From positions 248,001-312,000 of the forward strand of contig NZ_WPZO01000005.1 in assembly GCF_013031355.1 (NCBI RefSeq): DNA of 64,000 nt, written 5' to 3'. This DNA is from Ruegeria arenilitoris (lineage in GTDB: Bacteria; Pseudomonadota; Alphaproteobacteria; Rhodobacterales; Rhodobacteraceae). Below the pieces are notes generated by a model. It saw only the letters and a program-made list of their open reading frames with translations. It ran no database searches and was not told where the DNA came from. Positions 25,648 through 42,660 of the stretch are shown here, in pieces (the first letter of the stretch is position 1; each line of letters starts with the position of its first letter). Both the position numbers and the translations under genes were made by a program.

Positions 25648-25675
25648 AAGGGGCCGGTCCTGAGACCAGCCCCTT
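25648..25675 (-). terminator. Terminator of the 17-kb minus-strand gene block
   Basis: Stem AAGGGGC-C-GGTC / GACC-A-GCCCCTT with one mismatch and CTGA loop. On the minus strand it is followed by a run of six T. It lies 22 bases after the stop of the last LysM gene. Confidence 0.8.
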
Positions 25676-25697: not shown

Positions 25698-26807
25698 TCA
25701 GTTCGACGCTGCCATCAGTTTTTCATTGTGCTCACGCAGCGTGTCCGAAACGATGGCGTACCATTCGCCGGATTCACGCATCTCGTTCAGGCCTTTGTTC
25801 AGCATCGCCAGATATTGTTTTCCGAACGGATTGCTGCGGTGGCTGATGAAACGCAGTGAGGACAGCGAAGTCACGAACGGGTTTTCCACCAGATCGTTCG
25901 AGGTGAGGCCCATTTCCACCATGGTGTCCGAGAACAGCTGAACCTCGAAGGTTGCAACGTCAGCGGTGCCGGTCAGAACAGCGTCAAGGCACTCACGTGC
26001 AGTGATCGGCTGCATCAGGGTCATGGTTTCGCCGTTGTGCAGACCTTCTTGTTCAAGGTCGTGGATGAACCATCCATCCATACGGCAGATTGTTGCGCCT
26101 TCCAATTGAGTGAACGTGGTGGCGTTTGCGTAGTCGCTTTCTGGCAGGGTGTAGAAACCGACAACGATATCATAGACGGGTACGGATGCGTCGAATTGGG
26201 TGCAACGCACTTCTGTTTCCCAAGACCACTCATAGGTGCGGTTGGTGCAGTCCGGCATATTCCACGCCATCGACACGTCAAACGCGCCCAAAGGCAGTAG
26301 TGTTTCCAGGTGCGAGTTCCAGTCGTCCACGAAGCTGATCGAATAGTCGCGCGCGTTGCCGCCACGCTGTAGCGCCGTGGTCCCCAGACGGGTGATCGCG
26401 CCGCCGCCATTCAGCGATTCATCGGCAAACGGCGCCCAGCCATTGCCGGTCACCAGTTTAATCGGCGGCTCGTAAACGCTCGACCGCTTGACGCTGGCTG
26501 CTCGTGCTTCCTCGGCCGCGATAATTTCCTGCGCGGACTGACCATTCGGGAGGCTACCATCTTCACAAGGCAGGGCCAGTACAAGGCCGGGCGCCAGATC
26601 GTTTGGGTTGGTGATGACGTTGCGGTTCGCGTTGAAGATCGGCTGATAGTTCGACGTGCCATAAGCCGCGATCGCGATGGTGGCCATCGTGTCGCCATCT
26701 TCGACAGTATAGTTTGTACAGGCTTCCTGCGCTGCGGCTGCGCCTGCGGTGAGTGTGAGGACGGCCGTGGCCGTCATCACCTTGATATTTAGTTTTTCCT
26801 TCAGCAT
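25698..26807 (-). CDS. LysM-domain periplasmic protein with solute-binding-like domain (copy 1)
   Basis: 369 aa. A signal peptide (about residues 1-26, ending GAAAAQ) is followed by a LysM domain (about 33-80: YTVEDGDTMATIAIAAYG, then YQPIFNANRN and the closing GLVLALPC), which binds peptidoglycan glycans in other proteins. From about residue 115 the chain resembles family-3 extracellular solute-binding proteins (KLVTGNGWAPFADESL; ATICRMDGW; GTADVATFEVQLF). No transporter permease is nearby, so a sensory or wall-bound role is more likely than import. It is nearly collinear with the next gene upstream, which has exactly the same length. Confidence 0.85.
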   Translation of the reverse strand: MLKEKLNIKVMTATAVLTLTAGAAAAQEACTNYTVEDGDTMATIAIAAYGTSNYQPIFNANRNVITNPNDLAPGLVLALPCEDGSLPNGQSAQEIIAAEEARAASVKRSSVYEPPIKLVTGNGWAPFADESLNGGGAITRLGTTALQRGGNARDYSISFVDDWNSHLETLLPLGAFDVSMAWNMPDCTNRTYEWSWETEVRCTQFDASVPVYDIVVGFYTLPESDYANATTFTQLEGATICRMDGWFIHDLEQEGLHNGETMTLMQPITARECLDAVLTGTADVATFEVQLFSDTMVEMGLTSNDLVENPFVTSLSSLRFISHRSNPFGKQYLAMLNKGLNEMRESGEWYAIVSDTLREHNEKLMAASN

Positions 26808-26848
26808 TTATTCTTCCTCCCGTCGGTTGGAATGTTGAAAATGAGACC

Positions 26849-27958
26849 CTAGTTGATCGCTTCTAGCAGTCTTTCGTTGTGCTCATTCAGGGTGTCCGAG
26901 ATGATGGCGTACCACTCCCCGGTTTCACGCATTTCGTTTAGGCCCTTGTTCATCAGGGCAAGGTATTTCTTCCCCTGAGGATTGGACCGGTGAGTAATGA
27001 ACCGAAGTGCGGACAGCGTTGAGACATAGGGGTTCTCGACGATGTCGTTTGTGTCCAAGCCCATTTGGCTCATGGCGTCCGCGAACAGCTGCACTTCGAA
27101 CGTGGCAAGGTCGGCCGTACCGGTAATGACCGCGTCGAGGCACTCCCGCGCAGTGGCGGGTTGCAATACGGTCATTGTCTCGCCGCGCAGCAGGCCTTCT
27201 TGTTCAAGATCGTGCAGGGGCCAGCCTTCCATACGGCAGATTGTGGCACCGTGCAGATCGTCGAAGCTGGTTGCGCTTGCATATGTGCTTTCGGGAAGGC
27301 TGTAGAACCCGAAAACGATGTCATAGACCGGTGCCGATGCGTGGAACTGGGTGCAGCGGACCTCGGTTTCCCAAGACCATTCATAGCTTCTGTTGGTGCA
27401 GTCCGGGATGTTCCAGGCCATCGAAATGTCGAACGCGCCCAAGGGCAGTAGTGTTTCGATGTGCGAGTTCCAGTCGTCCACGAAACTGATCGAGTATTCC
27501 TCGTTGTTCCCGGCCCGTTGTAGGGTTGTTGTCCCCAAACGGGTGATGAAGCCGCCCCCATTCAGAGTTTCGTCCGCGAAGGGGGCCCATCCGTTGCCGG
27601 TCACCAGCTTGATCGGCTGCTTGAACGCACTGTTCGCCGACGTGTTTGCATACCGTGCTTGCTGTGCTGCGATGATATCGCGCGCACTCTGGCCGTTTGG
27701 CAGGCTTCCGTCCAAACAGGGAAGCACAAGAGAAAGCCCGGGTGTCAGCGCGTTCGGATTGGAGATATTCTCCCGGTTCGCGTTGAAAATAGGCTGGTAG
27801 TTCGATGTGCCGTAGGCAGCAATGGCGATGGTGGCCATGGTGTCACCATCTTGCACGGTATAGTTCGCACATGCTTGCTGGGCGGCAGCGGCTCCGGCGC
27901 TTAGCGCGATGACTGCAGCAGAGGTCATCGCAACGTTATGGAGCGGTAGTTGGGGCAT
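26849..27958 (-). CDS. LysM-domain periplasmic protein with solute-binding-like domain (copy 2)
   Basis: 369 aa from the ATG at 27958; the open frame extends further upstream but the signal peptide (VIALSAGAAAAQ) and the alignment with copy 1 support this start. LysM at about residues 33-80 (YTVQDGDTMATIAIAAYG) and a solute-binding-like domain from about 115. Most of the sequence is shared with copy 1, including LVTGNGWAPFADE and FVDDWNSHLETLLPLG-type segments and conserved cysteines (DCTNR, RCTQF, ICRM, ECLD), so the pair is a tandem duplication. The cysteines could form disulfides in the periplasm. Confidence 0.85.
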   Translation of the reverse strand: MPQLPLHNVAMTSAAVIALSAGAAAAQQACANYTVQDGDTMATIAIAAYGTSNYQPIFNANRENISNPNALTPGLSLVLPCLDGSLPNGQSARDIIAAQQARYANTSANSAFKQPIKLVTGNGWAPFADETLNGGGFITRLGTTTLQRAGNNEEYSISFVDDWNSHIETLLPLGAFDISMAWNIPDCTNRSYEWSWETEVRCTQFHASAPVYDIVFGFYSLPESTYASATSFDDLHGATICRMEGWPLHDLEQEGLLRGETMTVLQPATARECLDAVITGTADLATFEVQLFADAMSQMGLDTNDIVENPYVSTLSALRFITHRSNPQGKKYLALMNKGLNEMRETGEWYAIISDTLNEHNERLLEAIN

Positions 27959-28002
27959 TCGGTAGTTTCTCCAGATCGTATTTGAGAGGGCTATTTGTTG
28001 TT

Positions 28003-29265
28003 TCAGCCGTTTTCCATTTGGTGGCGTAGTGCGGTCGAGACGATGTCCCGCCATTCTCCGGATTGCTGCATGATCGCCAGACCTTGGTTCAGCGTCTCAA
28101 GGATCGCTTCACCATCCGGATTATCTTTGTGGGTCATGACGTTAAGCGATTTGATCGCCGCGAGGTTGGGGTTTTCGATGATGCGGTGTTCGTATCCCAG
28201 CCGCCCGATTGCCTCGACGGCCAGATGGGCTTCGATTGCTACGATATCGGCCGTGCCTTCCATGACCGCGTGAAAGCAGTCATCCGGCGAGACGGGGCGC
28301 ATCAGAGTGATCGCGGGCTCGTAAAGGCCCACCGCGTCCATATGCGACAGCGACCAGCCCTCGGGGCGGCAGATCGTGGTGCCTGCGAAATCGGCATAGG
28401 TCAGGGTCTGTTCATAGCCCGAGCCTTCACGGGCAAAGAATGTATCCACAACCTCGTAGAACGGGTTCGAGAAGTTATAGGTTTCACACCGCGCGCGGTC
28501 CTTGTCGGACAGTGTTGCGGCCTCTTCGCAATTCGGGCGCGACCAGGGGAATGTGGCGTCAAAGGCCAGAGTCGGCATCAACAGGTCCAGATGCGAGGAC
28601 CAATCGTTGACGAACTGGATTTTGTAGCTTTGCTCGGGCGCGGCACGCAGCATCGCGGTTTCCACCAGATTGGTGTAAAGGCCACGATTGGGCAGGGCCT
28701 CGTCGGTGAAAGGTGCATAGTCGCCACCGGTGATCAGCAGCAGTTGGCGGTCCCGAATTTCCGGACGCTCACCCTCATCCGCGTTGCGGATCAGCGCGGC
28801 ACCCTCGGCACGGGCGGCTTCGATCTCTTTTTTGGCCTCGGCTTTGGCCGCGATCACGGCTTCTTCGCTGGCCTTTTTGGCTTCGGCTTCGGCCTCGGCA
28901 ACACGGGCTTCGGCATCGGCGATTGCCTTGGCGGCCCGCTTTTCGGCGGCCTTTACCAGTTCCGCCGCCATTTCAGCGGCCATCGCTTCGGCTTCGGTCT
29001 GCGGTGCAGTCGGGGCCCGCCCGATATCCTCAAGACAGGGCAGGGTCAGGACGTCGCCCACGCGGATGATGTTCGGGTTATTGCCGATCACGTCGCGGTT
29101 GGCGTCAAAGATGATACGGAAATCCTCGGTCGAATACACTTCGATCGTCAATTCGCGCAGGCTGTCGCCGCGTTGGATTTCGTAGGTCGAGCACGCCTCT
29201 TGCGCCGAGGCGGTACCGGCCGCGGCAGCTAGTGCCAGGCTGGAGATGAACAGATGAGGTTTCAT
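28003..29265 (-). CDS. LysM-domain periplasmic protein with coiled coil and solute-binding-like domain (copy 3)
   Basis: 420 aa. Signal peptide (about 1-21, ending GTASAQ), LysM (about 27-76: YEIQRGDSLRELTIEVYS), then an Ala/Glu/Lys-rich stretch (about 88-162) with heptad character that is absent from copies 1 and 2, and a solute-binding-like domain (LLITGGDYAPFTDEAL; TTICRPEGWSLSH; GTADIVAIEAHLAVEA). The coiled coil may oligomerise or span the periplasm. It is the first of the three LysM genes in transcription order and follows the PP2C gene by 22 bases, linking these periplasmic proteins to the phospho-signalling genes. Confidence 0.85.
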   Translation of the reverse strand: MKPHLFISSLALAAAAGTASAQEACSTYEIQRGDSLRELTIEVYSTEDFRIIFDANRDVIGNNPNIIRVGDVLTLPCLEDIGRAPTAPQTEAEAMAAEMAAELVKAAEKRAAKAIADAEARVAEAEAEAKKASEEAVIAAKAEAKKEIEAARAEGAALIRNADEGERPEIRDRQLLLITGGDYAPFTDEALPNRGLYTNLVETAMLRAAPEQSYKIQFVNDWSSHLDLLMPTLAFDATFPWSRPNCEEAATLSDKDRARCETYNFSNPFYEVVDTFFAREGSGYEQTLTYADFAGTTICRPEGWSLSHMDAVGLYEPAITLMRPVSPDDCFHAVMEGTADIVAIEAHLAVEAIGRLGYEHRIIENPNLAAIKSLNVMTHKDNPDGEAILETLNQGLAIMQQSGEWRDIVSTALRHQMENG

Positions 29266-29287
29266 GGGTCCTGTAGCTTTGCCTTGG

Positions 29288-30073
29288 TTAGTTTTTTGTA
29301 AGTTTCACAACGCCGATCGAGGCATTGTCCTGATCCGGATCGCCTTTGGCCCGAAGGGCCTGCCACAGCGCGTCGGCGATATCCTGTGCCCAGGCGTTCG
29401 AATTGCTTTGGACAATGGACTGAATTTCGGCGTCACTGAGGTATTGCAGCCCGTCACTGCCCAAGATCAGAACGTCCGATGCGGTCAGTTCCAGCGGCGT
29501 TTCGGGGCAATCGACCTTGGGGATTGCAGCCCCCATGATGACTGAAGTCAGCTGGTTTCGGTCGGGATGCGCCTGTGCTTCGGCCTCGGTCAGTTTGCCT
29601 TCGGTCACCTGCGCGTCGATTACCGGCGCCATCGAGTGATCTTCGTTGATCTGGTGCAGAACTCCGTCGCGGAACAGGTATAAGGGGCTGTCACCGATCG
29701 AGATCCAGGATGCGCGGTGACCAACCAACAGAAGTCCCAGCAGGGTCGACCCCATGTTGAACTTGTCGCCTTTGTCCTCGCAATGGGCCGCGATCAAGGC
29801 GTTGGCTTGCATGGCTGCCAGTGGCAGCGCGTCGGCCACTGCCGCTTCTGATAGCGGGGTATTCCCAAGCTCGGCGTCTAGGGACTCGCGCCAGGCTGCA
29901 ACAACGAGTTCCGAGGCAACCTCGCCCGCGGCGTGACCACCCATACCGTCCGCAATTACGACATAGCCTGCATCCGCTGCATCGAATGTGCGCGCGGCAA
30001 TCGCGTCTTCCTGCGTCTCGCGCTGACCCTGATCAAGGATCAGCGCAATATCATATGCCGGTTGCGCCAGCAT
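29288..30073 (-). CDS. PP2C-family Ser/Thr protein phosphatase
   Basis: Cytoplasmic metal-dependent phosphatase (261 aa). The metal-binding motifs are present: RETQEDA (about 18-24), ADGMGGHAAGE (about 41-51), SIGDSPLYL, LGSDGLQYL and the final QDNASIGVV. It is expected to reverse phosphorylation by the kinase two genes upstream. It is separated from the FHA gene by only 3 bases. Kinase, FHA and PP2C sets accompany type VI secretion in some bacteria, but no secretion genes are here. Confidence 0.92.
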   Translation of the reverse strand: MLAQPAYDIALILDQGQRETQEDAIAARTFDAADAGYVVIADGMGGHAAGEVASELVVAAWRESLDAELGNTPLSEAAVADALPLAAMQANALIAAHCEDKGDKFNMGSTLLGLLLVGHRASWISIGDSPLYLFRDGVLHQINEDHSMAPVIDAQVTEGKLTEAEAQAHPDRNQLTSVIMGAAIPKVDCPETPLELTASDVLILGSDGLQYLSDAEIQSIVQSNSNAWAQDIADALWQALRAKGDPDQDNASIGVVKLTKN

Positions 30074-30076
30074 CTA

Positions 30077-31099
30077 TCAGGCATCCCGCCAGTCAAAGCC
30101 GTCATCGCAGAAGGCGGCAAAGCGGATCGAGGTTTCGCTGATGCGGATCAGGTCGCCGCTGGACAGTGCGACGGTGCTGAGAACCGGCTTGCCGTTCAGG
30201 CGGACCAGATTGGCCTTGCCGCCATGACCCAGATAGCATTTGCGATCTTCGGGGTCATAGGCAATCACCGCATGGTTGCTGCGCGAGATACCGGTGTCGC
30301 CAAAGTCCAGCTGAATGGCCTGATCATCGTTGCGGCCAATCTGCATCAGGCCTTCTGTCAGCGTAATGCATGAACCCCGACCCGGGCCAGAGGTGACAAC
30401 CAGCCAGCCAACCGGGAAGGTCTCTTGCGCGGCTTCGGTCTTGGCAACCGGTTCCGAGGTTTCCATTAGGTCCTGAACATGGGTGTCTGCACGTTCGAAA
30501 CCTAGGAAGGTGGTCTTGACGCGGCCACGACGGTCATCCGCCGCAGGCGCTGCGATCGGCTGTTGCGGTTCCGGCTGAGCTTCTGGCGCGGGCTCGGCCT
30601 GCGCCACAGGTTCGGGTTGTGCCGCAGGTTCGGGCTGAGTCAGCTCAACGGTTTCGACGACCACTTCGGCAACCGACTCCTCCTGAGCGGGCTGTTCCGC
30701 GGCAACGTCTTCCTCGGTGGCGATGTGCAGGGTTACAACCGGCTCTTCCGCTTCGGATAGCTCTTCGGGTGCTTCGGGTGCTTCGGGCGCCTCGAAAATA
30801 TTGTCCTGGGTTTCCGCGACGACCGCGGCCACGATGACCTCGTCTTCAGCGTCGTCGGTCGCTTCTTCCGAAAACTCGGGCATCTCTTCTTCGGGGATCA
30901 GGTCATCGCTGTCCTCGTAGCTTTCCGAGGACATGTTGCCACCGCCCAATGCAGCGCGAAGCGCATTGAAATCTGCAATCGGCTGAGGCGCTTCAGCCTC
31001 TGGCGTGGCGGTCTCTTCCACCTCGGTTTCGGCTTCGGGTTCCTTGGCTTTTCCGGCACCTTCAAGCAGCCGGCTAAGAGGGCTTTTGTATTTGAACAT
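30077..31099 (-). CDS. FHA-domain protein with long acidic, proline-rich linker
   Basis: 340 aa starting at MFKYKSPLSRLL; AAAGG lies 9 bases upstream, and the longer upstream frame lacks such a site. After a short basic N-terminus comes about 190 residues of Glu/Ala/Pro-rich low complexity (including PEAPEAPEE and repeated QPEPVAQ-type units). The C-terminal ~100 residues form a forkhead-associated domain: MQIGRNDDQ, the phosphothreonine-binding SRSNHAVI and a final LSSGDLIRISET. The FHA domain should read threonine phosphorylation by the kinase upstream; PP2C follows. No membrane segment. Confidence 0.9.
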   Translation of the reverse strand: MFKYKSPLSRLLEGAGKAKEPEAETEVEETATPEAEAPQPIADFNALRAALGGGNMSSESYEDSDDLIPEEEMPEFSEEATDDAEDEVIVAAVVAETQDNIFEAPEAPEAPEELSEAEEPVVTLHIATEEDVAAEQPAQEESVAEVVVETVELTQPEPAAQPEPVAQAEPAPEAQPEPQQPIAAPAADDRRGRVKTTFLGFERADTHVQDLMETSEPVAKTEAAQETFPVGWLVVTSGPGRGSCITLTEGLMQIGRNDDQAIQLDFGDTGISRSNHAVIAYDPEDRKCYLGHGGKANLVRLNGKPVLSTVALSSGDLIRISETSIRFAAFCDDGFDWRDA

Positions 31100-31237
31100 G
31101 ATGTCGATACCTTTGCTTTCTTTCACAGAACCTGCGTCCTGCGGGCTGCTACTCGCCTCTGCGCGCATCGGCACAACGGCACTTTTGATCCGGAAACCAA
31201 ACCAAATTTTCTCTGCCGCGACGGGCCGGTCCCCGTC

Positions 31238-31265
31238 AGGGTGGCGGATTTCCGGGCGCCACCCT
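31238..31265 (-). other. Hairpin downstream of the kinase gene
   Basis: A 9-bp perfect inverted repeat (AGGGTGGCG / CGCCACCCT) in the 206-base gap between the kinase stop and the FHA start. A second short repeat (GACGGG / CCCGTC, about 31221-31237) follows on the minus strand. There is no T-run, so either a weak terminator/attenuator or an mRNA-end stabiliser. Confidence 0.4.
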
Positions 31266-31305
31266 CAGCTTTCACAACGCGGCAGATCACTTGCGACCGG
31301 TCAGA

Positions 31306-33432
31306 TTACTCCTGCGCCAACTGCATCACGGCGTCCGTCTGGGCACCATCGCGCAACACGGTCAGTCGGGCCTGCGACTGTTTTTCTGCAACCAACCCGT
31401 CCAGCATGGCATCCAGGCTTACCTGCCCGTCGATGGCCAACCCGGTCTGCGCTTCCGAGACCAGAACATCGCCCCGTTGCAAATCACCGGCAGCATCCGC
31501 AGGCACAGTGGTGACAACAGTTGTCCAGTTCTGACCATCCTCGTTGCGAACGGTAAAGCCGTAGCCGTTTTCCAGCCCGATGGCGCGGAAGGCAGGCAAG
31601 GCCAGCAACCCGTTCACAGCAAGGGTTTTGCCCAGCGGACGGTAACGGGCCGTCACGCGGATATAGCCATCGGGATCAATTGACAGATCGTCCAGAACCT
31701 GCGCGGCAAAGCTTGTGTTTTCACGGATGGGGTTCCCGTTCAGGGTATAAATCGCGTCACCACGTTTGACCCAGTCACCGATCACCGACATGTCCCGCGA
31801 AGGATCAACACCGGTCACGGCGATGATGCTGCCGGTCGATGCGCGACGTCTGGACGTCTGGAACGGAATTTCGACATCCCAATGCGAGAAGGCAACCTGT
31901 GTTTCTGCCGGGGATGCTGAAACGGCCGGGGCAGGTTCAGTTGTAACGGTCTCTGCCGGCTGGGCCTCTTCTGGTTCAGCCGATTGTGCCTGTGTCTGCT
32001 CGACAGGTGCCTGTGTTGGTTCTGCCGCAACCGGGGCCGGCTCAACCTGTTCCGACGCGGTTTCTGTGGTGGCGACCTGCTCGACAGGTTCTTGCGTTAC
32101 TGCCACCTGTTCTTCTGTTTCCTGAGCCGCAGGAGCTGATGCAACCGCGACGTCCTTTGCCGGTTCGGATTTGTCACCGGACATCAGGAAATACCCGCCC
32201 GCTGCCAGACCAACCGCGACGACAGCTGCACCGGCAATCAGTTTGCCACTGCCGCCCGATCCGCTTTTGACAACGGTATCAACCGCGACGGCGGCTTCTT
32301 CTTTGGGTGTGAACTTGGCGAGTTCATTTTCGTCTTTGTCTTCATTGCCCAGGGCAAGATCGGCATTTCCGGCCAGCAGGGCAGTGACCACAGCTTCGGC
32401 ATTTTCGCTTTCGGCTTTGATCCGGGCCTTTTCGGCCTCTTCATCCTTGCGGTCCATGCCCACGATGACCGAGACCGGGCGGTAGTCGAACGTATCGAAC
32501 ATGACGTCCGGGCCGCGGAACATGCGCAGCCAGTCCAGCGCGGTTTGCAAACGGTCGGTGACGTGCACCTCCATCGCCTTGTCGATCGCCTCAAGGAACC
32601 CTTCGGGATAGCCTTTGAACCGTCCGGCCAGCGGGGTGTAGGGGTCTTCCTGACTGTTGTTGAAGGCGTTCAGACGGGTCTGGCCGTCAATCGGGCGCTC
32701 GCCGCTGATGGCGTGATACAACGTGGCGGCCAGCACATAGAGGTCGCTGCTGGGGCCTTGATCGGCTCCGCGCACATAGAATTCATGGGGCGAGTAACCG
32801 TCCTTGATCACCCGCAGGGTCAACAACGCAGCGGATTGGTTCGCGGCCTGTTCGCGCGCGGCGCCAAAGTCGATCAGAACCGGCTCACCGTTTTCATTGA
32901 TCAGGATGTTGTCGGGTGAGATGTCCCGGTGCAACATGCCACTCTGGTGGATGAACGACACCGCCGACAGCATCTTCTCGGTGACCTGAACGATGAAATC
33001 CGAGCCGGTTTTGTTGTCGGCATTCTCGACATAATCCAGAAGATCGCAGCCCTTGATGAAGTCCATCGCGATATAGGCTGTGTCGTTGTCTTCGAACACC
33101 TGATGGACGTCGACGATATTGGGATGGACCAGACGCGCGTGGTTGCGCGCCTCTTGAATGAACAAGTCGATGATCGCGCGCAGATCGTTCTTGTGGTCTG
33201 GATCGGTTGCTTCAACCAAGTCACCGTTACGGTGGCATAGCGCACCCGGGAAGCACTCTTTGATTACTACCTCGCGGTCCAGACTGTTGCGGGCCAGATA
33301 GGTGATCCCGAAGCCGCCATTGCTGAGGTAACGCAGGATTTCATACTGCCCGTGCAACAGCTTTGCGCCGGGTTGAAGTCCTTCGATTTTCGGTTCGTCG
33401 TGCGATGCACCGACCGCCTGGTTGTGGCTCAT
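31306..33432 (-). CDS. Transmembrane Ser/Thr protein kinase with periplasmic PDZ-like region
   Basis: 708 aa. The N-terminal Hanks-type kinase domain (about 30-300) has the glycine-rich loop LSNGGFGITYLA, probable ATP-binding lysine K58 (VVIKE), catalytic HRD at 168-170 followed by SPDN, and DFG at 188-190. The activation region has GYSPHEFY. A single membrane helix is near 398-416 (GAAVVAVGLAAGGYFLM), followed by a Glu/Pro/Thr-rich stalk (420-525) and a C-terminal region of about 180 residues with PDZ-like elements (GDAIYTLNGNPI; LQRGDVLVSE). It should sense something outside the membrane and phosphorylate cytoplasmic partners, possibly the GTPases or FHA protein (inferred). Confidence 0.9.
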   Translation of the reverse strand: MSHNQAVGASHDEPKIEGLQPGAKLLHGQYEILRYLSNGGFGITYLARNSLDREVVIKECFPGALCHRNGDLVEATDPDHKNDLRAIIDLFIQEARNHARLVHPNIVDVHQVFEDNDTAYIAMDFIKGCDLLDYVENADNKTGSDFIVQVTEKMLSAVSFIHQSGMLHRDISPDNILINENGEPVLIDFGAAREQAANQSAALLTLRVIKDGYSPHEFYVRGADQGPSSDLYVLAATLYHAISGERPIDGQTRLNAFNNSQEDPYTPLAGRFKGYPEGFLEAIDKAMEVHVTDRLQTALDWLRMFRGPDVMFDTFDYRPVSVIVGMDRKDEEAEKARIKAESENAEAVVTALLAGNADLALGNEDKDENELAKFTPKEEAAVAVDTVVKSGSGGSGKLIAGAAVVAVGLAAGGYFLMSGDKSEPAKDVAVASAPAAQETEEQVAVTQEPVEQVATTETASEQVEPAPVAAEPTQAPVEQTQAQSAEPEEAQPAETVTTEPAPAVSASPAETQVAFSHWDVEIPFQTSRRRASTGSIIAVTGVDPSRDMSVIGDWVKRGDAIYTLNGNPIRENTSFAAQVLDDLSIDPDGYIRVTARYRPLGKTLAVNGLLALPAFRAIGLENGYGFTVRNEDGQNWTTVVTTVPADAAGDLQRGDVLVSEAQTGLAIDGQVSLDAMLDGLVAEKQSQARLTVLRDGAQTDAVMQLAQE

Positions 33433-35059: not shown

Positions 35060-37098
35060 TCCGCAGCCTCTGCTAATCTCTTGTCGATGTCATCCGCGCC
35101 AAAGACGGCGCCCAGTTCTTCGGCGATATGCTGGGCGTGGTCAAAGGCTGCTTGCGCCTGGGCCCGCTCATTGGTTTCGCCGCTTCCGGCGCGATGTTCT
35201 AGATGCCCGGCCAGCAAGGCCAGATAGTGATCCAGAACCGTGTTCAGACGTTCCAGCAAATCGCTGCGCGCGGTGTCCACCAGATCATCGCCGATCATCT
35301 CGAATTCCTGCACAATCATGCGTTCGGCCCGGGCCACAACACTCTTGCGCGAAATCAGACGCGACAGCCAATTGACCCGCAGCTCGACCGTAATGCCACG
35401 GGTCAGCGCGGTGGTGTCGGGGCGGAACCACCGAACGGCACTGGTGTTCATCCGGTTGTCCGTCGGGTCCTGCCAGCCGGGCAGGGCGCGCAGAGCTGCA
35501 TTGCTTTGCATGTCGATCGTATACAACTCGCTCAGCATCCGTTGGCGCACGACCTGCGTGGCCCCCTGCACAAGTTCACGCATCCGATCCCGCAAGGGGG
35601 TGAAGTTCAGCTCGGTGTCACCGCCCTTGGCCAGCAACGGAGAATCCCCGTTCGGACCCCGCACCACGACCGATACCGCCTCGGCTACGGTGTCGTCCAT
35701 GACGCCGCGCAGATTGGCCAGAACGTCATCCATGTCATGGATGATCCCGGCCGTCTTTTCAGCGACGAGTGTACGCAATTCCGCCAGAGTCTTGTCGTTT
35801 TCACCCCCGTTTTCGGCGGTGGGAGTCGTTTCGTCTTCAATGGCGCGCAGATGTGCCCTGCTGCGCTCGACCTCGCCTTGCGCGAAGGTGTTGAGGTGTT
35901 GCCATGCCATCCGTAGCTGTTCGTTGCGCGGACCCTCGGTCAGGGCACCGGTGACATGGCGGCGCAGGTCTGGCAGACCTGAGGCGATCATCGCGGCAAA
36001 ACGCAGAACGCCTTCGCGGCTGATCGGGCCGGGCCCCTGTTTGATCTCTTCCACACCGTCCAGATATTGTTTCATCTGTGCCGGATGCGCCCGCAACCAG
36101 GCCAGAACCTCGTCATGGTTGATGCCGGTCTCATCACCGGTCAGGGCGTAATGCGCCCATTGTGCGCTGCCCATCAGCACGTCGATGTCCGAATTCCCAA
36201 GGGCCTTTTCCAAGCCTTCCATGACATCGGTCCGGACCTTGGCGGCATCTTCGGGGCCGCCGCCCAACTCATCGACGCGGTTGATGAAGACCACAATTTG
36301 GCCCAGCTCCAGTGCTTGCATCAGGCGGAACAGTTTCAGATCGGCCCGAGACAGGGCCTGATGCGCCGACAGAACCACCACAAAGAAATCGGATTCCTTG
36401 AGGTACTGGCGCGAGATTTCTTCACGGATCAAAAGCGGGTCGTTTACGCCGGGCGTGTCCGTCACCGTCAGCGGGAACGGGAAATGGCCGATGTCGAAAT
36501 AGACCTCGGCCTTACGGGTGATGTCGCTGTAGAGACCACGATCCGAGCCCGGATCGTGTTCCCCTGCTTCGGTGGGATCATCCCCGGCACATACATAGCG
36601 CGCCAGATCGTCCGAAGTCAGTTCGTCAAGGTCGTGATGCTGGCCCAGCAGGTGCTTGTAGCTTTCGCCCAGCCGCAGCTTGGCGCGGGTCTTCATAGCC
36701 TCGACCTGCTCTTCGATCATCTCGCGCTTATAGCTGTCCTCGTCATCAGGGAACATGTTGCGCAACTCTTCGCCTTCGGCGATCAGAGCCTGCCACTGGC
36801 GGTTGTCGAAGAAATGGAACTCGGCACCGGCGGTCCGCCCCGAAGGGTGGCCGAAATGCATGTCGGTGATCACCGTCGTCCAGGGATTCACGTCCGACGG
36901 CAGGTATTCGGCCTGACCGGTGAAGCCGTTGATCAAACGAGATTTGCCTGCCTTGATCTGCCCAACAAAGGCGATCGAAGGCTTCAGGTTTGCTAGATCG
37001 CTGACAATGCGAGAGATGAACTGGCGGGTCTCATCATTCGAGGTGCCGTTCATGTCTTCGGCAATACGGATTAACTCGCGACGATTATTTTCACTCAT
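35056..37098 (-). CDS. Dynamin-like GTPase, large subunit-type (pair 1)
   Basis: 680 aa. G1 GQIKAGKSR (46-54), G3 DTPGVND (214-220), G4 NRVDE (273-277). The switch-1 area LPSDVNPWTTVIT is nearly identical to that of the GTPase at 40232-42241, and RYVCAGDD is also shared, marking them as paralogues. A long helical region (about 390-480) follows the G domain. A basic/hydrophobic patch near the C-terminus (VNWLSRLISRKSVVARAE) could contact membrane. Coupled to the small GTPase gene downstream by an ATGA overlap. Confidence 0.88.
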   Translation of the reverse strand: MSENNRRELIRIAEDMNGTSNDETRQFISRIVSDLANLKPSIAFVGQIKAGKSRLINGFTGQAEYLPSDVNPWTTVITDMHFGHPSGRTAGAEFHFFDNRQWQALIAEGEELRNMFPDDEDSYKREMIEEQVEAMKTRAKLRLGESYKHLLGQHHDLDELTSDDLARYVCAGDDPTEAGEHDPGSDRGLYSDITRKAEVYFDIGHFPFPLTVTDTPGVNDPLLIREEISRQYLKESDFFVVVLSAHQALSRADLKLFRLMQALELGQIVVFINRVDELGGGPEDAAKVRTDVMEGLEKALGNSDIDVLMGSAQWAHYALTGDETGINHDEVLAWLRAHPAQMKQYLDGVEEIKQGPGPISREGVLRFAAMIASGLPDLRRHVTGALTEGPRNEQLRMAWQHLNTFAQGEVERSRAHLRAIEDETTPTAENGGENDKTLAELRTLVAEKTAGIIHDMDDVLANLRGVMDDTVAEAVSVVVRGPNGDSPLLAKGGDTELNFTPLRDRMRELVQGATQVVRQRMLSELYTIDMQSNAALRALPGWQDPTDNRMNTSAVRWFRPDTTALTRGITVELRVNWLSRLISRKSVVARAERMIVQEFEMIGDDLVDTARSDLLERLNTVLDHYLALLAGHLEHRAGSGETNERAQAQAAFDHAQHIAEELGAVFGADDIDKRLAEAAE

Positions 37099-37165
37099 AA
37101 ACCTTACCCTGGTAACTTGTAATCACGGATCGAATTCATCGAAAAATTGAACGAAAGGGGCGCAA

Positions 37166-38041
37166 TCATCCGGCCGGCCTTTTCAGACTGGCCCACAGAT
37201 TGATAACAGCACCCAGTTTGCGTGCCTCGTGGACAGAGATTGCAAAACGCTCACCATCATTCATGATGGCTAGCCCGGCCCCTTTGCCGCCCGAGGGGCG
37301 CATGACAATCAGCTGCGGGTGATCCATCGCTGAGGCCGTGTCGCCATCCCAACCGGCAAGATCGCGGGCGAAACGGGCTAGCAGATCGGAATCGGGGTGC
37401 AGAGCCGCCCCTTCGTCACATGCCCCGTCCATACGCAATGTCACCCCGTCATCGCCTTGGGCCAGAACACGGCCTTGGGCAAATCGTTCCGAACCCTCAT
37501 AGAACCGTTGGGCCAAAGAGCCGGTGGTGTCTTCTGTTGCTGCTTCCACAGTGGGTGCAGTGTCTTCAGGCTCGGGCTCATCCGGGACGATGGCAATCAC
37601 AGGCTCGGCAGGCAGTTCGATTTTCTCGCAGGCGCTTTCGATCTCGCTGAAGGTGATGCCCACATCGTCGGCCTCAAGCGCGGTGTCAGGCTGCAGCGAA
37701 ATCAGTTCCAACGGAGCGGGGGCCGCCGCAATGTCGGTCACCAGTTGCGCCAGCTTATTGGCCAGGTCCTCACGGGATTCGGTTTCGAAATCCGGGGCGA
37801 TGCCGGATTGGACCCGGAACACATCCGTGATCCGGGAACTGTTGACCTCGATTGCAAGGCAATCGCCATTGGCGGCAGTGAATTCCAGCCGGCGCGGCAG
37901 AATGGTGCCGCGAATGGTCCGCAGCACCTTTTCGCGCCGAATCCGGGCCGTTTCCCCCGGAACAGTGACCGCCGGGTTCAGGCGTGCCACAGACGAGCGC
38001 CCAATGTCGTCGAGCATCTCGAGAATGTCCGTATCCATCAT
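37166..38041 (-). CDS. Protein of unknown function in the GTPase cluster
   Basis: 291 aa, not recognised. The N-terminal ~115 residues are mixed alpha/beta (LRTIRGTILPRRLEFTAANG, LAIEVNSSRITDVFRV), followed by an acidic linker rich in Glu, Pro and Thr (about 150-180) and a C-terminal ~100 residues with beta character (HPQLIVMRPSGGKGAGLAIM). No signal peptide or membrane span. Situated between the Roadblock-like gene and a large GTPase with short spacers, so it is probably co-expressed with them and cytoplasmic. Confidence 0.75.
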   Translation of the reverse strand: MMDTDILEMLDDIGRSSVARLNPAVTVPGETARIRREKVLRTIRGTILPRRLEFTAANGDCLAIEVNSSRITDVFRVQSGIAPDFETESREDLANKLAQLVTDIAAAPAPLELISLQPDTALEADDVGITFSEIESACEKIELPAEPVIAIVPDEPEPEDTAPTVEAATEDTTGSLAQRFYEGSERFAQGRVLAQGDDGVTLRMDGACDEGAALHPDSDLLARFARDLAGWDGDTASAMDHPQLIVMRPSGGKGAGLAIMNDGERFAISVHEARKLGAVINLWASLKRPAG

Positions 38042-38065
38042 GCCGTGACCCCCCTTTGGTCCGGT

Positions 38066-38467
38066 CTAGACTGCGGCCGCAACGGGCCCCAGGCTGAGAT
38101 GCGATTTTGTCAACGCCAACCCGACATTGGCGCTGCCGCGACAGATGTAGCAGACCACATGATCGGGATATTCCCGGGTCCGCAGAAAAATATTTAGCCG
38201 ATCATTCGAAAACACCGCGATTTCCCCGAACCCCGGGTTGTCGGCTTCTTCAGCCCCAGCCGCACGCAGCAAGTCCTCAAAGGCATTGACCCCGCGCCCC
38301 TGAAACAGGTTAGCCACGGCAAGGGCAAGAGTGTCCAGGACGTCCGCGCTGTCTGAATCCAGGGTGTTGGTCCCAAGCAACATCCCGGTTTCCATATCGA
38401 CATACCCGGCTGCAATACAGTCGGGTATGGTTTCCATTGCGGTGTTCAGTGCGGCTTCGATCGTCAT
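38066..38467 (-). CDS. Small Roadblock/LC7-like protein
   Basis: 133 aa. The pattern CIAAGYVDMETGMLLGTNTL, then a long helix (ADVLDTLALAVANLFQ), then strands (FGEIAVFSNDRLNIFLRT; HVVCYICRG) resembles the Roadblock/LC7 fold of MglB-type regulators, which bind and regulate small GTPases in bacteria. The similarity is by eye and weak. Lying inside a GTPase cluster supports the idea of a GTPase regulator or dimer scaffold, but this is inference. Confidence 0.75.
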   Translation of the reverse strand: MTIEAALNTAMETIPDCIAAGYVDMETGMLLGTNTLDSDSADVLDTLALAVANLFQGRGVNAFEDLLRAAGAEEADNPGFGEIAVFSNDRLNIFLRTREYPDHVVCYICRGSANVGLALTKSHLSLGPVAAAV

Positions 38468-38489
38468 CGCTTGCTACCTGAGATTCTGG

Positions 38490-40223
38490 TTATAAAACAC
38501 GGAACTCTGCCCCGCCGTTTTCTGTTGCGTTCGGAACAGGGCGAACCGCGCCCTTTGCGTGGCGCGCGAAATGCTCGGCCGCGATCTGGTCGAACTCCTC
38601 GAGAAACGCCCCGAACACCTTTTTCATGCCTTCAACATCGTTCGGCAAATCCTCATCCGCGGTAACGTCGCGCCACATGGATGCCGCGCTCAGGGGTGCG
38701 CTTTCCGAAACAGTCAGCAAGCCTTCTTCTTCATCCTTGTCGTCCGACGGGGCGGACTCCTCGGTAGCGGCACCATTTGACAGGGACACGACCTGCATGT
38801 TCACAAGGCCGCTGGATTCGGGCTCCGGTTCGTATTCTTCTTCGGCGCCATTCGACTGTTCGGCCAGCAAGGCAGCGATTGACGACACAGAAATTTCAGC
38901 GCCTTCTTCCTTGGGGTCTTCGACCGATACCTGATCCTGTTCGGGCGTGTCCGCCAGCTTGCCTTCCAGCGTTTCCAGGAATGGATCCGATGAGTCACGA
39001 GCGGGCTCGTCTGGTGTTTCCACCTGTTCGCCAGCTGCCAGGATGTTGTCATCCTCTTCGTCCAGCTCACTTTCATCCAGCAGATCGAACTGGTCGTCAT
39101 CTGCCAGTAATTCCGTGTATTCCGCCAGATTCAGGCTGTTGCTTTCCGTTTCCCGGAAAAAGGCACGCAGATCGTCGCCTTCGGTTTCCGTTTGTGGCTC
39201 GGACACCGGTGTTTCGGTTCCCATCTCGGCGCGCAGACGCTCGGCCTCAGCCGCGTCAATACGTTCTTCGCGGCCGGTATCCTCGGTGCGGCGCTCTACA
39301 CGGGCCGGGCGGACGGGGAAGCTGGTGACAACTTCATCTTCCTTGGTGGCCGCGGGAACGGGGTTCACCAGCTTCAACGGGGCGGGTTCTTCGGCCTTTT
39401 CCACCATCCGCTTCGGACGGATCGGTTGTATGGGTGCGTCCCCGGCCAAGCTGTTGTCAATCTGATAGCGCGTCAGCATGTCGGCGCGGTCGTCCATGAT
39501 CTGTTCAGTGATCTGCAGGAAGCTATCGACCATCTTGCCGCCGCCACTGCGTGCCCACTGTTCGGCATCGCCACTTTTGTCCCGGGCAATGATCGCGTCA
39601 CGGGCCGAGAACAGGATCGAGCGATTGAACAGGTGACCCGCTTCGCGGTTGACCCGGCGCAGAACCTTTTGGCGGTCTTTCGGGCCCAGCACATCGGCAC
39701 GGGTTACCAGCAGCAGAGAGTTATGCTGAAGCCGTTCCGGCAGAGACACCCAAGTGGCCCGTTCGGTTTCGCGCCATGCCTGTGTTGCATGGGTGCACCA
39801 CAAGACCCCATTGGCCTGCCCAACCGCACGGCGCCACACGTCGTTTGAAATCTTCGGGTCAGAGATGCCGGGTGTGTCGATCAGGTCCACAGCTTCCAGA
39901 ATATCGGCCTCAAGGAAGATGCGCACAAACTGGACGTCGTTGACACCGACAGATTCCAGCTGATCCAGAGTGATGTTCTCGCGGGTTCCATCGTGACGTT
40001 GCACATAGGCCGACTTCTTGCCCCAGCTGAACCAGACCGGCGGCAGCTGGGTGGCAGTGACCTGTGTCGGCAGCGCTTGCGAGCGCAACAGGAAGTTCAT
40101 CAGTGTCGATTTCCCGGCGCTGAATTCTCCCATCAGCGCAAAGATTGGTTTGCGCCGGGACCACTGCTCGATGCGTTCCCAAGCCTTAGGAGAGACGAAG
40201 CGGGTTTGTGTATCTTTTGCCAT
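38490..40223 (-). CDS. Dynamin-like GTPase, small subunit-type with acidic tail (pair 2)
   Basis: 577 aa. The G domain occupies about the first 260 residues: G1 GEFSAGKST (32-40), G3 DTPGISD (116-122), G4-like TRAD (174-177). LWCTHATQAWRETERATW matches the small GTPase of pair 1. Unlike that paralogue, the G domain is followed by about 300 residues of acidic low-complexity sequence rich in Glu, Asp and Ser (for example LLDESELDEEDDNILAAGEQ), probably disordered, ending in a short helix (GMKKVFGAFLEEFDQIAAEH). The acidic tail could be a kinase target or docking platform (inferred). It follows the large GTPase gene by 8 bases. Confidence 0.86.
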   Translation of the reverse strand: MAKDTQTRFVSPKAWERIEQWSRRKPIFALMGEFSAGKSTLMNFLLRSQALPTQVTATQLPPVWFSWGKKSAYVQRHDGTRENITLDQLESVGVNDVQFVRIFLEADILEAVDLIDTPGISDPKISNDVWRRAVGQANGVLWCTHATQAWRETERATWVSLPERLQHNSLLLVTRADVLGPKDRQKVLRRVNREAGHLFNRSILFSARDAIIARDKSGDAEQWARSGGGKMVDSFLQITEQIMDDRADMLTRYQIDNSLAGDAPIQPIRPKRMVEKAEEPAPLKLVNPVPAATKEDEVVTSFPVRPARVERRTEDTGREERIDAAEAERLRAEMGTETPVSEPQTETEGDDLRAFFRETESNSLNLAEYTELLADDDQFDLLDESELDEEDDNILAAGEQVETPDEPARDSSDPFLETLEGKLADTPEQDQVSVEDPKEEGAEISVSSIAALLAEQSNGAEEEYEPEPESSGLVNMQVVSLSNGAATEESAPSDDKDEEEGLLTVSESAPLSAASMWRDVTADEDLPNDVEGMKKVFGAFLEEFDQIAAEHFARHAKGAVRPVPNATENGGAEFRVL

Positions 40224-40231
40224 GTCGCTAC

Positions 40232-42241
40232 TTATGCTGCCTCGTTACTAAGATCTTTCAGGATGTCACCCAGGATATCGTCGCGCGATTTCTTGGGGGT
40301 CATGCCCGCCATCAGGGCCGCCTGGTTCGGATCCTGCTCGGCCGAGGCCGAAATGTTCAGCAGGGTCTCTTTCTGCTCGCGCAGGAAGTCGGACAAGCCG
40401 GCCCGCACATTTTCCAGAACGGCCGCGATCTGGTTTTCCTCAAGGTCTTTGGTGATCGAGTTCGCCTCGGACGCGATCAGGCGCGTGTAGTCAGCGGCGT
40501 AGGCTTCGAACCCTTTGCGGCGTTGCCACCAGCGGCGCCACCATGTGCTTTGCAAATCCAGCGCGATCGTACGGCCAATACCCAATGGCGGCGGCACGCG
40601 GGGCACGATGGGCGCCTCGATGCTGAACTCACCCAGATGGTTGCCCAGCAGCTTTTGATACAGCGCCTCGACATCCGCCGCTGCGGCACTGTAAAGCGCC
40701 CCGGCGTCTTTGCGCATGGCGCGGGAAAAGCTGAAATAGGCGGCCTTTTGCAGGGTGCGTAGACCAGCCGGGTCATATTGCCAAGTGCCTTGCTCGCCAT
40801 TCTGTTCCAGATGCGAAATCAAGGAATCCGTGGCGCGTTTGACAAAGTTCTCTTCAGCCGACTTCAGGCGCTCGAGCACCTTGTCGCGCAATGAGGTCGT
40901 CAGTTCGGCGGCCTTTTTCTCGTATTCTGCAGCAACTTTGGCGATGGCTTCCTCGGGTGCTACGCCGTCCAGATCGCGAACGACCCCTTGCCCTTCGGAC
41001 AGGTTTTTTGCCACGGCGGTAGCGCGAATTTGACTGGCGATGTTGCGCGCCCGGTGGCGCACACGATCCAACAGACGGTTGCCCGCACCTTCGGCGATGC
41101 GCTCGTTCATGGCCAGCAAAAGGTCCGGCAGGCCGGACAGCGCCCAGATTTTATCAAGCGAGGGGGCCTGATCTCCAAATCCTGCAGCCAGGTAGAAGGT
41201 GTTGAGAGCTTCGCGCGATTCTTCCGACAGGATATCCGGGTTGCCGGTCAGGGCAGCCTCGGCCCAGATCGCGCTGCCGAACACAACGCTGGTGTTGGTG
41301 TCGATACTGTTCTGCTTCAGCGTTTCCTGAATCCGGTCGCGGATCTCGGGGACCTGATTGACCGGGTCGGACAGTTCGTCGATCCGGTTCACGAACAGGA
41401 TAATCTGGCGGTTTTCGAACTGCGCGATGATCCGCATCAGCGCCATGTCCATCGTGGTCAGGGCCTGGCTGGCGGCCAGCACCACAACACAAACCTCGGA
41501 TCCACGCAGGCTGCGCAGGGTGATCTGCTCGCGCACCATGAAGGTATCGTTCACGCCGGGCGTGTCGCACAGCTTCAGCGAGATCGGATATTGCGGAATG
41601 TCCATGTACAATTCCGCCGACTTGGTGACATCGGCAAAACGCCCGGTCTTCGGGTTGATATCCGGGTCGTCTTCGTCACCCAGGCAGACATAGCGCTGGA
41701 TCAGTTCGTCGTCGAAATAGTCATACTGGTGGCTTTGCCCCAGAATCAGGTCGAAATGCTGGCCCAGACGCGCTTCGGACTTAGCCTTCATCTCGCCGAT
41801 CTGGCGGCGGATATCTTCCATCTCGTCATCGGCGCCGGCCCGGTTGGCCAGTTCGCCCAAGCGGCCGCCTCCGACCATCAGGTTGTCCCACTCTTCTTGC
41901 TCAAAGAAGGTGAATTTGGCCTTCTTGTCGCCTTCGGTGCGGGTGTTGATATTCAGCGTGGTCACCACCGAGGTCCACGGGTTCACATCCGAGGGCAACA
42001 GGGCAGGGCGCCCGGCCAGAATGTTTACGATCGAGGATTTGCCAGCCTTGACCTGCCCGACCAACGTCACACTGGCCGTGAAATTCTCCATCCGAGTCTT
42101 GAGCGTCGCAAGCCGCGCCGAAGATCGCGCGTCCGCCACCTCTGTCAGCTGGTCGATCTGCGTCGTCAGCGCCGTCATCGCCGAGGTCATCGGCGTCAGC
42201 GCTTCGTTTCCCACGGACAGAAGGTGATCGTTACGGGCCAT
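40232..42241 (-). CDS. Dynamin-like GTPase, large subunit-type (pair 2)
   Basis: 669 aa. G1 GQVKAGKSS (62-70), switch region LPSDVNPWTSVVT, G3 DTPGVND (226-232), G4 NRIDE (285-289). Helical stalk-like sequence fills about 390-500. Near residues 567-575 is a strikingly Trp/Arg-rich patch (WWRRWWQRR), a candidate membrane-insertion element of the kind dynamin-family proteins use, followed by long amphipathic helices. Paralogue of the GTPase at 35056-37098. It is 2 bases downstream of the small unknown gene and 8 bases upstream of its small partner. Confidence 0.88.
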   Translation of the reverse strand: MARNDHLLSVGNEALTPMTSAMTALTTQIDQLTEVADARSSARLATLKTRMENFTASVTLVGQVKAGKSSIVNILAGRPALLPSDVNPWTSVVTTLNINTRTEGDKKAKFTFFEQEEWDNLMVGGGRLGELANRAGADDEMEDIRRQIGEMKAKSEARLGQHFDLILGQSHQYDYFDDELIQRYVCLGDEDDPDINPKTGRFADVTKSAELYMDIPQYPISLKLCDTPGVNDTFMVREQITLRSLRGSEVCVVVLAASQALTTMDMALMRIIAQFENRQIILFVNRIDELSDPVNQVPEIRDRIQETLKQNSIDTNTSVVFGSAIWAEAALTGNPDILSEESREALNTFYLAAGFGDQAPSLDKIWALSGLPDLLLAMNERIAEGAGNRLLDRVRHRARNIASQIRATAVAKNLSEGQGVVRDLDGVAPEEAIAKVAAEYEKKAAELTTSLRDKVLERLKSAEENFVKRATDSLISHLEQNGEQGTWQYDPAGLRTLQKAAYFSFSRAMRKDAGALYSAAAADVEALYQKLLGNHLGEFSIEAPIVPRVPPPLGIGRTIALDLQSTWWRRWWQRRKGFEAYAADYTRLIASEANSITKDLEENQIAAVLENVRAGLSDFLREQKETLLNISASAEQDPNQAALMAGMTPKKSRDDILGDILKDLSNEAA

Positions 42242-42243
42242 TG

Positions 42244-42660
42244 TTAGCCTCCGGTTCCTGTGGCGGCAATGCGGGGTTGATCCTGACCTTCAGGAGAGCT
42301 GGTCAGGATGTCGATCCGGGCGATCAGGTTCAGAGCGTTGCCCAGAATCGCGGCTTCGTCTCCCGGTGTGATTTCTTCGTAGGCGCTGGAATCGGCAAGC
42401 ACTTCGATCGCGCTGAACTGTTCACTGTTTTCCAGCAGGGCCAGACGGCGCCCGGTTGGAAAACCCTGGGATTTGGTCTTGGGCAGCGGCATACGAGAAT
42501 TGGCAAGCAGGTAGTGCCCCCCCGAATGCGTGCGCAACGAAACGCCAAAGCCTGTATTCGGGTGGTCCCGATTCAAGGACTTCAGTTCACCAAGGAAGCT
42601 TTCACGTGCAAGACCAACGGCGTCTTGCTCAGCAGCGGCAGAGTTCATCATGTTGGTCAC
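42244..42660 (-). CDS. Small protein of unknown function, first gene of the GTPase cluster
   Basis: 138 aa from a GTG at 42660, chosen because AAGGG lies 8 bases upstream; a TTG at 42690 is the alternative. No signal peptide or membrane span. The middle shows strands (GFGVSLRTHSGGHYLLANSR) and a late helix (DEAAILGNALNLIARIDILT). Not recognised. It is followed by the large GTPase of pair 2 after 2 bases, so it is almost certainly part of the same transcription unit, whose promoter should lie just upstream. Confidence 0.75.
   Translation of the reverse strand: MTNMMNSAAAEQDAVGLARESFLGELKSLNRDHPNTGFGVSLRTHSGGHYLLANSRMPLPKTKSQGFPTGRRLALLENSEQFSAIEVLADSSAYEEITPGDEAAILGNALNLIARIDILTSSPEGQDQPRIAATGTGG

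Follow-up and report, generated by a model that had tools for sequence, protein, structure and literature searches.

Dynamin-like GTPases tied to a Roadblock protein and a kinase, FHA and PP2C gene set in Rhodobacteraceae: a possible route from envelope state to the inner membrane

What might a bacterium do with thirteen genes that place dynamin-like GTPases, a Roadblock-like protein, a Ser/Thr kinase with FHA and PP2C companions and three secreted LysM proteins side by side? Such a locus lies in a 64,000-nucleotide stretch of Ruegeria arenilitoris DNA (contig NZ_WPZO01000005.1, positions 248,001 to 312,000 of the forward strand), the whole of which is called the window here. A sequence-only reading had described thirteen consecutive minus-strand genes of these kinds, and this description was borne out: an open reading frame (ORF) check of the window confirmed all thirteen at 25698-42690, and Pfam matches and motifs agree with the kinds assigned. 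Comparison with relatives shows a core made up of the kinase, the FHA protein, the PP2C phosphatase, a short GTPase, the GTPases D1 and D2, the Roadblock protein RB and the two-part protein U, to which the window's lineage adds a second D1/D2-type pair, LysM solute-binding proteins and a transmembrane (TM) stretch in the kinase. Our reading, held tentatively and at slightly less than an even chance, is that envelope-state signalling through this conserved multi-gene system controls a dynamin complex at the inner membrane, the window carrying an enlarged form of the system. The features of the locus are as follows, from high to low coordinates:

42244..42690, minus strand: gene A, a small protein of 148 amino acids (aa) counted from TTG, with homologues before D1 in relatives
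40232..42241, minus strand: D1, a dynamin-like GTPase of 669 aa with a Trp/Arg-rich segment near residues 555-580 (Dynamin_N 1.8e-11)
38490..40223, minus strand: D2, a GTPase of 577 aa with a long acidic tail (Dynamin_N 4.2e-10)
38066..38467, minus strand: RB, a predicted Roadblock/LC7-fold protein of 133 aa (AlphaFold2 and Foldseek)
37166..38041, minus strand: U, 291 aa, with a putatively Roadblock-like C-terminal part at about 168-291 (AlphaFold2, Foldseek, VIA)
35056..37098, minus strand: D3, a second dynamin-like GTPase of 680 aa, paralogue of D1 (Dynamin_N 4.1e-13)
33773..35059, minus strand: D4, a short GTPase of 428 aa, paralogue of D2 (Dynamin_N 2.6e-10)
31306..33432, minus strand: Ser/Thr kinase of 708 aa with a TM-like stretch at 398-416 (Pkinase 4.6e-29; hydropathy)
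30077..31174, minus strand: FHA protein with a C-terminal FHA domain (FHA 7.6e-8)
29288..30073, minus strand: PP2C phosphatase (PP2C_2 3.3e-12; motifs DGMGG, GSDG and DNAS)
28003..29265, minus strand: L1, a secreted LysM and solute-binding-like protein (NCBIfam LysM protein 2.8e-6 and SBP_bac_3 1.7e-4, both below cut-off)
26849..28054, minus strand: L2, a secreted LysM and solute-binding-like protein (LysM 6.9e-5, over cut-off; solute-binding half by likeness to L1)
25698..26807, minus strand: L3, a secreted LysM and solute-binding-like protein (LysM 0.018 and NCBIfam LysM protein 5.3e-11, both below cut-off)
25648..25675, minus strand: intrinsic-terminator-like hairpin closing the locus (12-pair stem and T tail)

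Are the GTPase half and the kinase half parts of one system? The question was addressed in the family Rhodobacteraceae (NCBI gives Roseobacteraceae for the named plasmid records). D1 was searched in 394 family genomes and matched in 99 of them (98 of 393 genera), while D3, searched in 149, matched in 36. The searches of the 394 family genomes, as well as those of the class and the phylum given below, scored the best two or three first-pass candidates per genome, and absences should therefore be considered provisional. For 100 loci in 91 genomes, the surrounding DNA (pieces of at most 20 kb) was scored with profiles of the locus genes; these loci cover the window's own genome and 90 others of the 99 with D1, the remaining eight, mostly low-scoring, being left out. 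Where one genome appeared under two locus ids, the copies were merged by sequence, and the ORF starts of relatives were chosen by script, so that their lengths are approximate. The sequence-only reading had proposed a neighbourhood search of this kind and had staked its single-system idea on the two halves staying together. The commonest order, found on one strand at 39 of the 100 loci, is kinase-FHA-PP2C-D4c-D1-D2-RB-U, where D4c is a short GTPase that in relatives occupies the place of D4, between PP2C and D1; at 32 more loci, read by eye, this order has up to three parts missing or an extra match. Among the 90 D1 genomes (above 400 bits), D2 was found in the same piece in 85, adjoining D1 as its partner gene, RB or U in 78, at least two of kinase, FHA and PP2C in 71, and all seven in 48. 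The markers co-occur as well: the FHA family is present in 29 of the 149 genomes, 27 of which share it with a D-type GTPase (Fisher 9e-20, ignoring kinship), and the Roadblock family in 31, all 31 with a D-type GTPase (Fisher 4e-27, again ignoring kinship). On this evidence of gene order and co-occurrence, the kinase half and the GTPase half would form one system, and their coupling is well supported; the single-system idea thus stood up to the refuting condition set for it.

D1 was found in 54 of 54 genomes of the window's genus, with the best match 84-100% identical; among the matches listed, the closest named one is that of R. arenilitoris HKCCD9208, at 99%. D1 is rare outside the family, with matches in 2 of 385 genomes of the class (both of the same family) and 9 of 398 of the phylum (8 of the same family), at limited sensitivity. 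On plasmids it was found in 18 of 72,556 records, which are five Ruegeria replicons of 0.39-0.81 Mb, twelve from Leisingera of 32-180 kb and one from Rhodobacter. Both Leisingera plasmids viewed (L200, L202) carry full sets, one of which also has LysM proteins, its kinase block being convergent.

This distribution should be considered when referring to anti-phage defence, a role that had also been suggested for the locus and in which dynamin-like GTPases would seal phage-damaged membranes with the kinase cascade as the trigger. The plasmid copies in Leisingera would fit such a role, as would the PADLOC likeness of D1 to LeoA (7e-10) and LeoBC (2e-9) and of the kinase to PD-T4-6 and MAD6. However, these models, for which no cut-off is given, match parts of D1-D4 and the kinase in a way that looks generic to large superfamilies, no other partner of the systems was seen, and of the 10 LysM and flanking proteins scanned with PADLOC, only an ABC ATPase gave matches. 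With gene order fixed, and since D1 is held by all 54 genomes of the genus and the PADLOC hits look like cross-matches, defence appears improbable.

Turning to the GTPases themselves, the count of four dynamin-like proteins made from the sequence needs to be qualified. Dynamin_N is above the Pfam cut-off in all four, and the G1, G3 and G4 motifs are present in each; however, only D1 and D3 are dynamin-sized by sequence, D2 and D4 being short-GTPase types. D1 is 37% identical to D3 over 301 aa, and D2 is 31% identical to D4 over 218 aa; as the members of each couple are paralogous, the locus carries a large/short GTPase pair twice. In the PDB, the D1 family profile matched the Campylobacter dynamin-like protein (DLP) 5owv (8e-12) and BDLP 2j68 (4e-9), and its alignment to 5owv_A spans 221-467, i.e., reaches beyond the GTPase domain; the length of D1 and D3 would fit neck and trunk helical bundles behind that domain. 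The Campylobacter DLP binds and tethers membranes, and most bacterial DLP genes are encoded side by side (PMC6104087). The Trp/Arg-rich segment of D1 reads T-I-A-L-D-x-x-x-x-W-W-x-x-W-W in the window protein; in aligned D1 proteins, the first WW is kept in 35 of 37 and both in 27 of 37, usually followed by Arg and Lys, which makes it a plausible predicted membrane-contact site. The P-loop pattern is found in 37 of 37 D1, 37 of 37 D2 and 6 of 6 D3 proteins. As to D2, 24 of 40 relatives have only 279-336 aa, leaving little space for neck and trunk (lengths alone were compared), and D2 may or may not be a full dynamin-like protein, most of its relatives being short. The GTPases may remodel membranes.

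For RB, structure prediction was more informative than sequence. The AlphaFold2 model (predicted local distance difference test score, pLDDT, of 90) presents the Roadblock topology plus an additional helix within the first helical region, and the alpha-beta-beta-alpha-beta-beta-beta-alpha order of the fold was found by model and Foldseek alike. Searched against the PDB, the model returned Roadblock/LC7, MglB and LAMTOR entries at the top (best E 2.2e-7). Pfam Robl_LC7 does not match the window RB and matches one of 31 RB family members (E 8.7e-4), and a PDB sequence search with the RB profile gave nothing significant, the best being 9hef (E 0.096), named 'Serine protease inhibitor Rv3364c'. 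By its predicted structure RB is of the Roadblock/LC7 fold, and the original Roadblock guess was thus right even though Pfam is silent on the window protein. The U model (pLDDT 82) has a Roadblock-compatible topology at about 168-291; its best Foldseek match is at 6.8e-4, all seven matches below 1e-3 being Roadblock-fold entries, and the best VIA Z is 8.0, which is middling by the tool's own scale. A profile comparison of RB with U by hhalign was not significant (probability below 1%), nor was any match in a PDB sequence search with the U profile. The C-terminal part of U may be a second Roadblock domain, the fold being the sole line of support.

The kinase, FHA protein and phosphatase have the features expected of a phosphorylation switch, and the assignment of a transmembrane kinase, an FHA protein and a PP2C phosphatase stands, based on Pfam, motifs and the TM-like stretch. 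The kinase keeps the VIKE, HRD and DFG motifs and has about 290 aa behind the TM-like stretch, with a PDZ-like end (PDZ_2 4.6e-4, below cut-off); the phosphatase has PP2C_2/PP2C Pfam matches in addition to its motifs. In the FHA protein, the N-terminus is acidic and variable and ends in the motif R-x-K-T-x-x-L-G-F, which in the window protein lies about 57 residues ahead of the FHA domain as matched by Pfam. Across all 25 FHA proteins aligned, R, T, L, G and F never vary, and K is kept in at least 90%. By analogy with GarA and OdhI, the Thr of this motif is a predicted phosphorylation site. A kinase, an FHA protein and a PP2C phosphatase encoded next to each other also resemble the PpkA-Fha-PppA threonine-phosphorylation pathway of the type VI secretion system (T6SS), and one may suppose that a pathway of this kind controls secretion here. 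No TssB/VipA match was found in the 99.99% complete genome (of 14 control genomes only E. coli matched; other T6SS parts were not searched), and T6SS control, which we regard as hardly credible, was rejected on this ground.

What could feed such a switch from outside? The three proteins described as LysM and solute-binding-like should be considered with their match levels in mind: by Pfam, LysM is over the cut-off in L2, below it in L3 and not listed for L1, NCBIfam LysM-protein matches in both secreted proteins scanned (L1 and L3) are below the model cut-off, and SBP_bac_3 is below cut-off wherever it matched in the L proteins. The record of Ruegeria sp. THAF33 labels its two copies 'transporter substrate-binding domain-containing'. 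L2 and L3 are 75% identical, and as the L2 ORF overlaps L1, the true start of L2 is probably later. LysM solute-binding proteins accompany the system in Ruegeria (window, L038, L201), Roseovarius aestuarii, Actibacterium, Defluviimonas, Frigidibacter and one Leisingera plasmid, and at these loci the kinase and GTPase blocks are linked in five arrangements over six genera (co-directional after, co-directional before, divergent, convergent, and with the receptors between kinase and FHA). On a tree of 114 D1 rows above 600 bits, comprising all fetched family loci and 20 picked named loci, the first five of these groups cluster; two short-contig loci, of unknown state, fall among them, and the Leisingera plasmid is not on the tree. 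Most other relatives have no LysM proteins within the fetched pieces, and their kinase has no TM stretch. The LysM solute-binding proteins are an add-on and not part of the core, so that their earlier inclusion in the system applies to the window's lineage but not to most relatives.

The kinase type goes along with its neighbours. Among kinases with a neighbour of LysM type, of OmpA type (PBP_like_2 with OmpA) or of PilJ type, 18 of 19 have a TM stretch, one PilJ-type case being counted, and at the exception, L213, the LysM proteins are encoded next to a second PP2C on the opposite strand. Among kinases with no such neighbour, 56 of 66 have no TM stretch; seven of the other ten end 24-41 aa past it (lengths by subtraction), and the remaining three are L132 and L207, on contigs below 10 kb, and L230. 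These counts leave out 41 Ruegeria-type loci whose DNA pieces end before the LysM genes. Labels on the D1 tree place OmpA- or PilJ-type sensors at nine loci and a histidine kinase at ten. Two distinct families, each with a ligand-binding domain and a likely wall-binding one, accompany kinases that have an outer part. As a separate observation, two LysM solute-binding proteins directly follow other transmembrane kinases at L180 and L181, in pieces that show no dynamin, and the receptor-kinase set thus also exists apart from dynamins; at L182-L199, LysM and solute-binding proteins stand alone or in tandem pairs in other, partly conserved contexts.

Genes beyond the operon suggest a setting. At ten D1 loci of one clade, mreB lies downstream on the same strand, followed by mreC, mreD, PBP2 and rodA as far as the piece reaches; it comes directly after U at seven (L074, L215, L216, L218, L220, L222, L224) and 4-7 kb further downstream at three (L142, L155, L219). 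The outside-to-inside sensing first proposed for the locus gains some support from this mreB position and from the TM kinases beside receptors; as first stated, with LysM receptors as part of the system at large, it is not supported. Envelope growth or repair would be the most likely setting in which D1 and D2 act. Flagellar genes are found as neighbours too: motB and flg genes adjoin 5 of the 114 D1 loci, which corresponds to three changes on the tree. At four of these (L129, L131, L150, L256) the operon adjoins motB-flgE-flgK-flgL-flgI, and at L237 motB-flgE lies divergently on the kinase side. As a general role, flagellar function was rejected, since FlgI does not track the D-type GTPases: it is found in 30 of 36 genomes with them and 90 of 113 without them, and, being equally common in both, it indicates that flagella are not required. 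A histidine kinase with a response regulator also recurs beside the operon (L047, L054, L056, L066, L070, L214, L221, L231).

The same neighbours, together with the MglB and LAMTOR hits of the RB fold, could be taken to favour a polarity or positioning switch resembling MglA/MglB, in which Roadblock proteins would steer GTPases that mark a pole, a flagellar base or an elongation site, with the dynamin fold serving as switch or scaffold instead of remodelling membranes. The motB/flg and mre adjacencies would suit this explanation. However, FlgI is as common with as without the D-type GTPases, full clusters were seen in two genomes with no FlgI found (G036, G140), and D1 is a large dynamin-type GTPase rather than a small Ras-like one. 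We consider such a switch unlikely, though it deserves to be kept in mind.

Under our preferred reading, envelope signalling to a dynamin complex, the steps could be arranged as follows. Periplasmic solute-binding proteins held at the wall would bring a ligand derived from wall or envelope to the kinase's outer part, and the kinase would then phosphorylate the invariant Thr in the R-x-K-T-x-x-L-G-F motif of the FHA protein. Binding of the FHA domain to that or another phosphothreonine may recruit or release the GTPase complex, and PP2C would reset the switch. The Roadblock protein or proteins would bind the GTPases as regulator or scaffold, while D1, with D2 as its partner, would attach to the inner membrane by the Trp/Arg-rich segment, and the two together may remodel, tether or protect the membrane at sites of envelope growth or damage. 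As the kinase of most relatives shows no TM stretch, the input there would be cytoplasmic. A more specific form of this proposal, i.e., an undescribed signal-to-membrane machine running from wall-held receptors through a eukaryote-type switch of kinase, FHA and PP2C to a Roadblock pair (Ragulator- or MglB/MglC-like) and on to a dynamin complex at envelope-growth sites, is possible but, in our view, doubtful.

Several observations weigh against this reading and need to be considered when referring to it. Between the stop codon of U and the first Met codon of mreB lie about 150-330 bp at the seven direct loci, so that a single transcript is not implied; mre adjacency amounts to two or three changes inside one clade of the D1 tree; and the best mreB match of the window's genome sits on another contig. 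Mapped onto that tree, the pattern of kinase type and neighbours likewise comes down to two or three changes. Three independent contrasts are left, with kinase type differing in about one of them, and the paired test is without power. Four loci (L081, L106, L108, L110) were scored as LysM by their place among Ruegeria and relatives with no LysM gene seen, and a recount without them lowers the periplasmic-kinase changes from 3 to 2. With so few changes and a powerless test, the pattern is support and not proof. The kinase at L230 has a long outer part with no receptor found in the piece. In D4c, the P-loop pattern is missing in 8 of 23, one perhaps cut by the chosen start; nucleotide binding is thus not always kept there, and D4c may be becoming a pseudo-GTPase subunit. 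In 19 of the 90 D1 genomes, six on contigs below 13 kb, no two of kinase, FHA and PP2C were found near D1 (one of the 19, G003, has FHA-PP2C-D4c and RB-U at other places in its genome), and D1-D2 stands alone at 8 loci; the GTPase pair can thus stand alone. One genome, G146 (L204), has kinase-FHA-PP2C with no D-type GTPase found, its contig ending about 2 kb past PP2C.

The extreme form of this doubt is that two unrelated operons are neighbours by chance. The 19 D1 genomes with no kinase block nearby agree with it, as do the 340-bp gap between D4 and the kinase and the occurrence of LysM solute-binding proteins, and of kinases followed by LysM proteins, with no dynamins nearby. Nonetheless, the linkage survives rearrangement in many genera and the co-occurrence is specific, and we regard chance neighbourhood as very improbable.

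The layout of the locus allows more than one transcript, as the spacers of about 130 bp ahead of the FHA gene and about 340 bp between D4 and the kinase leave room for it. The terminator noted at the locus end is a strong hairpin at 25675-25648; however, terminator-like matches across the region are no more than in shuffles (22 versus a mean of 21.0), and promoter-like matches do not exceed shuffles either (2 versus 5.8). The start of gene A is uncertain (TTG at 42690 or ATG near 42654), and its product had no match in Pfam, NCBIfam or PADLOC at the limits used. Homologues of gene A directly precede D1 in most Ruegeria loci, in Roseovarius albus and in Aliiroseovarius, and weakly in Roseovarius aestuarii. 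Genes for tRNA often mark island borders, and one for tRNA-Leu lies at 43371-43455, just upstream of the locus; yet D1 is present in all 54 genomes of the genus.

What would the system mean, if the reading holds? A dynamin-like GTPase is present in about a quarter of the sampled family genomes, in most cases linked to a Roadblock-fold protein and a kinase-FHA-phosphatase switch, and to our knowledge the control of bacterial dynamins is largely open. If the link is physical, the locus would offer a tractable model of how bacteria reshape membranes in response to signals, and GTPase signalling on Roadblock scaffolds might then have a counterpart in bacteria. Wall-binding receptors at some loci and elongasome neighbours at others provide a specific and testable tie to envelope growth. 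Were the doubtful, more specific machine true, its GTPases would be, as far as we know, the first Roadblock-regulated dynamins and the first phosphothreonine-controlled bacterial dynamin.

How does the gene set compare with known systems? Each protein family is already known, and it is their combination for which no published account was found: in agreement with the sequence-only reading, which knew of no described system with this gene set, literature searches revealed no published description, subscription papers being thinly covered. The bacterial DLP pairs (Campylobacter Cj-DLP1/2, Nostoc BDLP1 and LeoABC) are alike in that the D1 profile matches Cj-DLP and BDLP chains and the GTPases are encoded side by side; they differ in that the D2 relatives of our locus are mostly short and in that genes for Roadblock, U, kinase, FHA and PP2C proteins are fixed parts of it, no such set having turned up for a DLP in the literature searches. 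MglA/MglB/MglC of Myxococcus and Rag/Ragulator also combine a Roadblock-fold protein with GTPases, and the possible second Roadblock domain of U adds to the likeness, whereas the GTPases here are dynamin-type and not Ras/Rag-type. PpkA-Fha-PppA of the T6SS shares the kinase, FHA and PP2C triad but differs in that the window's genome has no TssB match and the neighbours of the triad are GTPases. In mycobacterial GarA and corynebacterial OdhI, a conserved Thr motif in a flexible N-terminus precedes a single FHA domain, as in our FHA protein, in which the motif is R-x-K-T-x-x-L-G-F, the phosphosite is predicted and the partners are GTPases. Finally, the actinobacterial conservons (among them the mfp conservon) are likewise multi-gene operons with a Roadblock protein and a GTPase, while the core described here holds a Ser/Thr kinase, an FHA protein and a PP2C phosphatase, and its GTPases are dynamin-type.

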